Shown here: in pieces, positions 22,099-25,429 of the stretch
Position numbering within the stretch: the first letter of the stretch is position 1
Layout: every line of letters starts with the position of its first letter
Assembly: GCA_012729535.1 (NCBI GenBank)
Contig: JAAYCY010000005.1
Span: 62,001 to 126,000 of the forward strand
DNA: 64,000 bases
Direction of reading: 5' to 3'
Source of the DNA: Methanomicrobiales archaeon
GTDB lineage: Archaea; Halobacteriota; Methanomicrobia; Methanomicrobiales; Methanospirillaceae
Position numbers and translations under genes: made by a program
The notes under the pieces: generated by a model
The model's database searches: none
Told to the model about the DNA's origin: nothing
What the model saw: the letters and a program-made list of their open reading frames with translations, nothing else

Positions 22099-23931
22099 AT
22101 GCGCCTTCTTTTAATTCATTCAGATTTTATCGAATACGAAGCAAAGAAAAAGACAAAAATTGCAGAAGATCCCTGTAATCCTTCAGGAAGGCTTGAAGAA
22201 GCCCTGGTTGCATTTTGTGCAGTCGAGTCTCCTGATGCTGATGGCATTGAAGATGTTGTCGATCAGACAGTGGTTGCAATTAGTGAAATGGCGGGAAAAG
22301 TTGAATGCAACCGGGTGATGGTATACCCGTATGCACATCTTTCATCTGACCTTGCAGCTCCTGATCTTGCAGTTGCTGCACTGAGGGCAATCGAGGCATC
22401 ATTGGAGAAGGCCGGGCATGAAGTTAAACGTGCTCCATTTGGCTGGTATAAATCATTTTCACTCTCCTGTAAGGGACACCCGTTATCAGAACTCTCACGA
22501 TCGATTACTCCTTCTGAAGATCTGGTAAAACCGGAGAAGAAACACATTGAGCATAAATTCTTTGTGATGACTCCTGACGGGAATATTCATGATACGAAGG
22601 AATTCCTGAATGATTCTCCTTTTGCAGCTCTTGTTAAAAAGGAGATGGGTATTGCAGTCCCCGTTGGTGGAGAGCCGGTTCACGTGGATCTGATGCGGTC
22701 AAAGGAATTCGTTGACTATGAACCGGTTTCTGATGTTGGACATCTTCGCTGGCTTCCCCGTGGAAAACTTGTCCGTGATCTGCTGGCCGACTACGCCCTT
22801 TCTCTTGTCCTGGATTATGGTGCAAGCCCTGTAGAGACACCAGTCATGTATGACCTTGCTGATAAGGCCATCTTTGAACATGCAGATAAATTCGGGGAAC
22901 GCCAGTACCGGTTCAAGTCAGGTAACAGGAACATGATGCTCAGGTTTGCAGCCTGTTTTGGTATGTTCACCACGATGAGGAGGATGCATATCTCTCCAAA
23001 CCACCTTCCGATGAAGATGTACGAGCTTTCTACATATTCATTCCGTCATGAACAAAAAGGAGAAGTAATCGGTCTGAAACGACTTCGTGCATTTACCATG
23101 CCTGATATGCATTCCCTGTGTAGGGATCTTGAGAATGCACTTACCTGTTTTGAAGAACAACTGGCTATCGGATGGAAGACCGGACGTGATTTCGGTACAG
23201 AACTAGTTGCCGTGTTCCGTTGTACTGAAGAGTTTTACAAGGAACATGAGGCCTGGATAAAGAAGATTGTCAGGGAATCAAATGTTCCAATGCTTATTGA
23301 AACTTTGTCAGATCGTGTTCATTACTGGATTGCAAAGGTTGATCTTGCAGCAATAGATGGTCAGAGTCGTCCAATTGAAAATCCGACAGTCCAGATTGAT
23401 GTAGAGAGTTCAAAACGGTTTGGTATAAAATATCATCTTGGCGATGGGACAGAAGTATATCCCCCTATCCTTCATTGTTCACCGACTGGATCTGTTGAGC
23501 GTGTGTTTTGTGCAATTCTTGAAAATACTGTTAACCAAAAGGTTGCACATCTGCCGACCTGGCTTACTCCAACACAGGTGCGGATTATCCCGGTCACAGA
23601 CAATCACCTCTCATATGCACAGGAACTTGCAGATACCCTTACCCGGGCCCGAATCAGGGTTGATGTTGATGACCGGGACGATTCACTGAATAAAAAGATC
23701 CGTGCAGCTGGTATGGACTGGGTGTCATTTGTTATCGTTGTTGGAGATTCGGAAGTAAGTTCAAAGAACCTGACCGTTACTGTTCGTGCACAGTCAGAAC
23801 CTAACAAACCCCATAAGATAACCTGCACTACTGATAAACTGGTAGAAATGATTAGCGCAGAGACCGAAGGGATGCCATTCAGGCCCATGTATACACCAAG
23901 AATGTTATCTCAAAAACCAAGATACATCTAA
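22099..23931 (+). CDS. thrS: Threonyl-tRNA synthetase, archaeal type
   Basis: The protein has 610 residues. Residues 1 to about 145 form the archaeal DTD-like editing domain ([18 protein letters not shown]...), which clears Ser-tRNA(Thr) and replaces the bacterial N2 domain. The class II core follows, with motif 2 near [18 protein letters not shown] and motif 3 near [13 protein letters not shown]. The C-terminal anticodon-binding domain (about 490-600) includes [21 protein letters not shown]. It charges tRNA(Thr); a tRNA-Thr(CGT) gene lies at 32.4 kb. The Shine-Dalgarno and TATA sequences upstream support this start. The adjacent downstream region is a decayed ferredoxin/AOR locus. Confidence 0.95.
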
Positions 23932-23987: not shown

Positions 23988-24116
23988 ATGCCAATAAAGC
24001 GGCTCGCCGTCATTGACGCTGACCGTTGTGTCGGGTGCCAGTCCTGTATGTTTGCGTGTACCCGCAGACTGGGCTTTGGCGGAGTGGGGAAATCTGCCAT
24101 TCTTTTAATTTTTTGA
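23988..24116 (+). pseudogene. Truncated N-terminus of a 4Fe-4S ferredoxin
   Basis: From ATG 23988 there are 42 codons: MPIKRLAVIDADRCVGCQ, then SCMFACTRRLGFGGVG. Cys14, Cys17, Cys20 and Cys24 form a perfect CxxCxxCxxxC cluster motif. The frame ends at a TGA (24114-24116), after a few residues that do not resemble a ferredoxin. Intact relatives continue with a second and often more clusters. No second cluster follows in any frame before the oxidoreductase remnant. It looks like the 5' end of a dicluster or polyferredoxin gene truncated by deletion. Whether the 42-residue peptide is made is unknown. Confidence 0.7.
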
Positions 24117-24117
24117 G

Positions 24118-24494
24118 ATGGTTGCTGAACAATCAAATCAGTTTTACCAGGATATCGGGAGAGGTGCAGATTAGGTTGCATTCCAATATGGCGGAACAGA
24201 ATATGCCCTTACTTTTGGAAAAAATGAAATGCCAGGATACCACACAGGTCTGGCAACATTCATATGGTATATCTGTGGTGCATGGCATAGTAATCTTGAT
24301 AATGCCGGGTCCAGCGTTGACCAATAACCTCCTGAAAAGTTTTTGGGAAAATCCTGAATTAATTGCAGAAGAACTCTACGAGGAGAAGGCATACTGGCAG
24401 ATTTTATCCAGTTTAGTAGTATGCTTTTTTCCCCGGGCCCTTTACTCCCAAGATATAATCATTGAAGTGTTATCGGTCTGTGGGATTGATATGT
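24118..24494 (+). pseudogene. Aldehyde ferredoxin oxidoreductase remnant, frameshifted
   Basis: A first segment (24118-24327) reads VAEQSNQFYQDIGRGAD, then a stop, then YGGTEYALTFGKNEMPGYH and, further on, ICGAWHSNLDNAGSS. These resemble the middle of tungsten aldehyde ferredoxin oxidoreductases (MPGY and the later H-x-x-x-D stretch). It stops at TAA 24325-24327. Homology resumes in another frame from about 24330: SFWENPELIAEELYEEKAYW and LSSLVVCFFPRALYSQD, typical of the AOR C-terminal domain. At least one nonsense and one frameshift mutation, and loss of both ends, make it non-functional. Intact enzymes have about 600 residues. The adjacent ferredoxin fragment is its plausible former electron partner. 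Confidence 0.65.
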
Positions 24495-24497
24495 CAA

Positions 24498-24638
24498 TTG
24501 AATGCGGTGATAATGCTTTTGGTTGCAGAAAATGGAGATCCTCAACTGGCAAATTCATTGATGAGTATGCTGGGAACAACACTTGCTGCAGTCGTAGGGT
24601 TTTATTTTGGCGGAAGGGTATTAGAAGGAAAAAAATAA
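24498..24638 (+). pseudogene. C-terminal remnant of an unknown membrane protein
   Basis: In a third frame, an open segment reads NAVIMLLVAENGDPQLANSL, then MLGTTLAAVVGFYFGGRVLE, and ends at TAA 24636-24638. The last part is a hydrophobic helix with a short GKK tail, like the C-terminus of a small one- or two-helix membrane protein. It directly follows the oxidoreductase remnant and has no start of its own. I infer a deletion that fused two decaying genes. The parent family is not recognised. Confidence 0.45.
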
Positions 24639-24715: not shown

Positions 24716-25429
24716 GTGGAATACGTAATCATAACACATAATTTAACAAAATTTTATGGTAATCTTATCGCTGTCAATAGTGTGAATCTTTCAGTCAGAA
24801 AGGGTTCATTATTCGGCCTATTAGGTCCGAATGGTTCTGGAAAAACTACCATTATTAAAATGCTGACCGGACAGATACTTCCTTCATCAGGAAAAGGAGA
24901 TGTTCTTGGAATTGATGTCGTATCAGATCCGATAAAAGTTCGAACATTGGTTGGAATAATCCCAGAACAGGAAACACCTCCCAGTTTCCTGACCGTGATG
25001 GAATACCTTGATTTTGTCGCAGAAATCAGAAAGATACCTGAAATAGAGAAAAAAGCAGCATGGTGGTTTAATTACCTGGATTTCGAAGATAAAAAACATG
25101 TACTCTGTAAAGATCTCTCCAGAGGTACCCGTCAGAAACTGATGCTTACTCAGGCATTTATCCATGAACCTGAACTGGCTCTGATAGATGAACCGCTTAT
25201 CAACTTTGATCCGATTATGCAGGCAAAGGTAAAGGAATTCTTTGTTTCCTATGTTCAGAAGAATAATACCCTTTTTTTATCCACCCACCTGCTTGAAACC
25301 GCTGAAGAGATATGTTCTGACATTGCTATTCTGCATAAAGGAGATCTGTTATATTCCGGATCGATGAGTAAGATACTGGAAGAAAACAGGCATCTGTCAG
25401 AATTTTTCTTATCACTGGTCAGGAGATAG
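24716..25429 (+). CDS. ABC transporter ATP-binding protein
   Basis: The protein has 237 residues from a GTG start at 24716. Walker A is GPNGSGKTT (37-45). The signature is LSRGT (134-138), a variant of LSGGQ. Walker B is LALIDEP (154-160), and the switch His is in STHLLE. The family energises ABC-2 type export of drugs, lipids or polysaccharides. It is followed after 1 base by a 468-residue membrane protein, the likely permease partner. The transported substrate cannot be predicted. Confidence 0.9.
   Translation: MEYVIITHNLTKFYGNLIAVNSVNLSVRKGSLFGLLGPNGSGKTTIIKMLTGQILPSSGKGDVLGIDVVSDPIKVRTLVGIIPEQETPPSFLTVMEYLDFVAEIRKIPEIEKKAAWWFNYLDFEDKKHVLCKDLSRGTRQKLMLTQAFIHEPELALIDEPLINFDPIMQAKVKEFFVSYVQKNNTLFLSTHLLETAEEICSDIAILHKGDLLYSGSMSKILEENRHLSEFFLSLVRR

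Follow-up and report, generated by a model that had tools for sequence, protein, structure and literature searches.

What do the gene fragments packed into 650 bases between two intact genes of a Methanospirillum genome represent, and how did they come to lie there? The locus belongs to a window of 64,000 nucleotides, the whole stretch of DNA that was analysed, and the genome itself (G000) is a 3.09-Mb draft in 86 contigs that is 96.8% complete. Six-frame translation of positions 23988-24638 reveals pieces of a ferredoxin, an aldehyde ferredoxin oxidoreductase (AOR) and a membrane protein arranged head to tail (Table 1). The first-pass annotation, made from the sequence alone, had described three head-to-tail segments in three frames, and this is borne out: the AOR piece occupies two frames and the membrane-protein tail shares the frame of the ferredoxin. 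The pieces score 69 to 114 bits, compared with best tblastn scores in 500 dinucleotide shuffles of 22.7 bits for AOR, 25.4 bits for ferredoxin and 28.9 bits for the membrane protein, and are therefore not chance matches. The locus is almost certainly a pseudogene of a two-gene module, whose catalytic subunit, of the tungsten AOR family, was accompanied by a ferredoxin-type subunit with four clusters.

Table 1. Features of the decayed locus and its flanking genes (positions in the window).
Feature	Position	Strand	Evidence
Threonyl-tRNA synthetase, intact, 5' flank	22099..23931	+	610 aa, NCBIfam NF003068 869 bits
Truncated ferredoxin (AorA-like Fe-S subunit)	23988..24116	+	tblastn 69.3 bits
Ferredoxin/AOR deletion junction	24100..24114	+	sequences at both breakpoints
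AOR remnant a, about codons 393-468	24109..24336	+	tblastn 114 bits
Frameshift inside AOR remnant	24337..24352	+	alignment to four congeners
AOR remnant b, about codons 475-524, different frame from a	24353..24502	+	tblastn 78.6 bits
C-terminal tail, unrelated 254-aa membrane protein	24504..24638	+	tblastn 69.7 bits
ABC-transporter ATPase gene, intact, 3' flank	24716..25429	+	syntenic in G010, G009, G003, G001, G011

The original state of the locus is preserved in relatives. DNA searches with the flanks of the locus found the same neighbourhood in M. stamsii Pt1 (G010), the metagenome-assembled genome (MAG) M59 (G009), G003, G001 and G011, and the threonyl-tRNA synthetase (ThrRS) of the window is syntenic in all five of these close congeners; same-genus loci also include M. 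hungatei MAGs. Alignment of gene order with sister genomes, proposed as a check in the earlier note, showed the ferredoxin and AOR genes to be intact at this site in four congeners (G010, G009, G003 and G001), where the order is threonyl-tRNA synthetase, ferredoxin (138 or 139 aa), AOR-family protein (589-591 aa) and ABC transporter. The pairs of M. stamsii Pt1 (L031/L056) and M59 (L032/L057) agree with the window copy in site, order and families, and have the highest identity to it. Relative to the intact Methanospirillum pairs, the window copy is short of about 100 codons of the ferredoxin and about 460 of the AOR, and contains two stops and a frameshift. In G009 and G001, a 244-aa FMN-reductase-like (flavodoxin-fold) gene lies between the AOR gene and the ABC transporter (L032 5017-5751, L034 5108-5842); it is absent from the two other congeners with a syntenic pair.

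The intact large subunit matches AFOR_N (215 bits) and AFOR_C (187 bits), and the intact small subunit matches Fer4 families. Among solved structures, the large subunit matches several kinds of AOR, including 1aor (202 bits) and 9mqx_D (194 bits), and the small subunit matches the Fe-S subunits 9mqx_E, 8c0z_C and 6x6u_B of AOR complexes. Published work describes tungsten enzymes in which a catalytic subunit is accompanied by a small subunit that carries four Fe4S4 clusters (PMC6365974, PMC12096430). By analogy with the family, aldehyde oxidation, or acid reduction, would take place at a metal-bispterin site of the large subunit, whose 4Fe-4S cluster would hand the electrons on to the polyferredoxin subunit. 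AorAB of Aromatoleum aromaticum (8c0z; PMC6365974, PMC10413684) likewise combines a large tungsten subunit with a small polyferredoxin carrying four Fe4S4 clusters, although the intact Methanospirillum subunits match it distantly (156 and 36 bits) and its FAD subunit, AorC, has no counterpart within the Methanospirillum pair. The AOR and Fe-S subunits of 9mqx (chains D and E) are the second best solved-structure match of the large subunit and the best of the small subunit, respectively; the 9mqx complex also has an NADH-binding subunit, whereas no such gene adjoins the Methanospirillum pair. Similarly, BamBC of class II benzoyl-CoA reductase (4z3w) joins a tungsten subunit to a small Fe-S subunit, but the match is weak (82.9 bits) and confined to the N-terminal 220 residues.

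The AOR portion of the window carries several kinds of damage. Remnant a matches M. stamsii at 56 of 76 residues and is interrupted by two in-frame stops (TAG at 24172-24174 and TAA at 24325-24327), and the frameshift that separates it from remnant b consists of one extra base near 24339-24345. The first-pass annotation had noted the frameshift correctly, but had counted a single stop. Alignment with 1aor places the cluster ligands of the intact orthologs at C289, C292, C296 and C497, and equates the second-shell residues Glu313 and His448 of the Pyrococcus furiosus enzyme with E323 and H454. In the window, the first three cysteines of the CxxCxxxC plus distal Cys arrangement are deleted and the codon of the fourth is kept in remnant b (SLVVCFF; C494 of P. 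furiosus AOR), while the glutamate is deleted and the codon equivalent to His448 reads Asn. Among 67 columns that are invariant across six intact orthologs, 10 are broken in the remnant; when each syntenic intact ortholog was judged by the others, 0-3 of about 68 columns were broken (p = 0.001-0.04).

Pfam recognised none of the AOR pieces when these were searched directly, and the AFOR_C profile found no match in the window's own genome; the pieces were assigned only through orthologs from sister genomes. The proposed profile check against AOR and ferredoxin families thus identified the intact orthologs and not the AOR pieces of the window: AFOR_N and AFOR_C are both present in the intact syntenic ortholog, and the remnant gives no Pfam match. 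The window copy is dead as an AOR, a remnant and not a working family member. Its frame is disrupted, its ortholog at the syntenic site is intact and constraint on it is relaxed, as is characteristic of a pseudogene.

At the first junction, ferredoxin codon 38 is joined to about AOR codon 393, with the loss of about 1.5 kb relative to M. stamsii. The pentamer CAGTT is present at both M. stamsii breakpoints, and the window has changed there since; in these sequences, the CAGTT pair would fit a deletion between short repeats. At the second junction (24503/24504), near AOR codon 524, the native AOR C-terminus is replaced by a hydrophobic tail of about 45 C-terminal codons, which ends in GFYFGGRVLEGKK and matches residues 207-252 of a 254-aa membrane protein (L038 2308-3072, minus strand). 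An unrelated small membrane protein had been named as the source of this last piece; it is indeed unrelated, and its source can now be specified as this 254-aa protein, which only G001 among 232 class members encodes in full, at an unrelated site. A partial relative occurs in G213, and the distribution is patchy. No further copy of the gene was found in the window genome, no syntenic counterpart of the tail was found in congeners, and searches of Pfam and NCBIfam assigned the protein to no family (DUF5752 scored below its cut-off). The likeliest course is that the membrane-protein gene once lay downstream of the AOR gene, and that one deletion took the AOR end together with the start of this gene. 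Overall, the module was inactivated by two stops, a frameshift, the loss of about 1.5 kb and a further rearrangement, in which the membrane-protein tail took the place of the AOR C-terminus. The remnants, their order, the breaks and the intact syntenic relatives are observed directly, and we infer the order of events, the loss of function in the cell, the substrate and deletion between short repeats.

Substitution patterns bear on the age of the loss. The threonyl-tRNA synthetase of the window differs from that of M. stamsii by a dN of 0.05 and a dS of 1.35 (dS 1.55-1.65 for other congeners). The AOR remnant and its M. stamsii ortholog give a dN of 0.13-0.17 and a dS of about 1.1, and intact AORs of G010 and G001 differ by a dN of 0.12-0.16. 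The excess of amino-acid change in the AOR remnant is small, which suggests that decay was recent on the scale of the branch since the M. stamsii split; this is a relative dating and not an absolute one. As a rough estimate, the unconstrained time may amount to about a tenth of that branch. The earlier suggestion of recent decay, or of deletions still in progress, thus holds for the first half: the substitution pattern fits recent decay, and the deletions show a finished loss in the sequenced genome.

The ferredoxin piece is better preserved. Its 42 codons comprise native codons 1-38 and four codons read through past the deletion junction before a stop, confirming the earlier description of a ferredoxin N-terminus with a CxxCxxCxxxC motif that ends at 42 codons. 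The start and the motif (CVGCQSCMFAC) are retained, 36 of 38 residues are identical to those of M. stamsii (G010), eight of the ten differences from M. stamsii fall at third positions, and none of 25 invariant columns is broken. These features would suit an expressed and selected one-cluster mini-ferredoxin that has outlived its dead AOR partner. However, the contrast in broken columns with the AOR part reaches only p = 0.057 (Fisher), and the first Cys motif is the only one left of the four in an AorA-like four-cluster subunit; intact congener ferredoxins have several 4Fe-4S Cys motifs and lie directly upstream of the AOR gene. Such conservation is, moreover, expected by inheritance, because most of the divergence predates the loss. 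A selected mini-ferredoxin is therefore very unlikely. Either the truncation came later than the AOR damage or the difference arose by chance, and the piece may have been retained longer or may still be doing something.

Two further readings question the decay of a working pair in this lineage. A draft genome of 86 contigs could contain sequencing or assembly errors that mask intact genes, yet three kinds of lesion, including the loss of about 1.5 kb and the join to an unrelated gene, fall within 650 bases, point changes also break invariant residues, and the intact flanking genes speak against poor sequence. Errors of this kind are exceedingly improbable as the explanation. The lack of a syntenic counterpart of the tail in congeners might also indicate that the pieces never formed a working pair in the window lineage and arrived as fragments by horizontal transfer. 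This is just as improbable, given that both the ferredoxin and the AOR fragments occupy the exact syntenic site and resemble those of M. stamsii most, the species that is also the nearest relative by ThrRS (dS 1.35 versus 1.55-1.65). The inactivated two-gene module is a case of ordinary gene decay, clearly documented, in a known kind of module.

The Methanospirillum proteins belong to an uncharacterised AOR clade (L056-L135) that occurs widely in anaerobic archaea and bacteria of many phyla; a ferredoxin-like gene lies at most 700 bases upstream of the AOR gene in 72 of the 73 clade loci with enough flank. No title or abstract on the ferredoxin-AOR pair in Methanospirillum was found in the literature. 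Each of the six other congeners whose genomes are at least 90% complete has an intact AOR. Across the 86 contigs of the window genome (96.8% complete), no AOR was found elsewhere and the remnant was the sole match; an AOR gene may be hidden in an assembly gap. The locus pinpoints a recent loss of a module otherwise kept across well-sequenced Methanospirillum, and this loss would have entailed a metabolic change. The window species represents a natural null for the clade, and its physiology, compared with that of M. stamsii or M. hungatei, could reveal the role of the module.

Other members of the genus also show variation in these genes. G011 (L006) has about 140 bases between the threonyl-tRNA synthetase and the ABC ATPase and neither ferredoxin nor AOR at the site, which may reflect an independent loss or ancestral absence; neither of the two ThrRS trees resolves the G011 branch. 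AOR genes occur elsewhere in G004, G005, G002 and G008, with a ferredoxin directly before the AOR gene in all three loci read. In the G002 AOR (L036), the frame is open apart from one in-frame TAG at codon 336, a position at which G005, the closest of the orthologs compared, encodes Trp; this may be an early stage of decay in a second, independent case, or a MAG sequencing error. In G005 (L037 1-6000), the pair occupies another site and, in a translation read by eye, is followed by two moeA-like genes, which hint at metal-pterin cofactor insertion.
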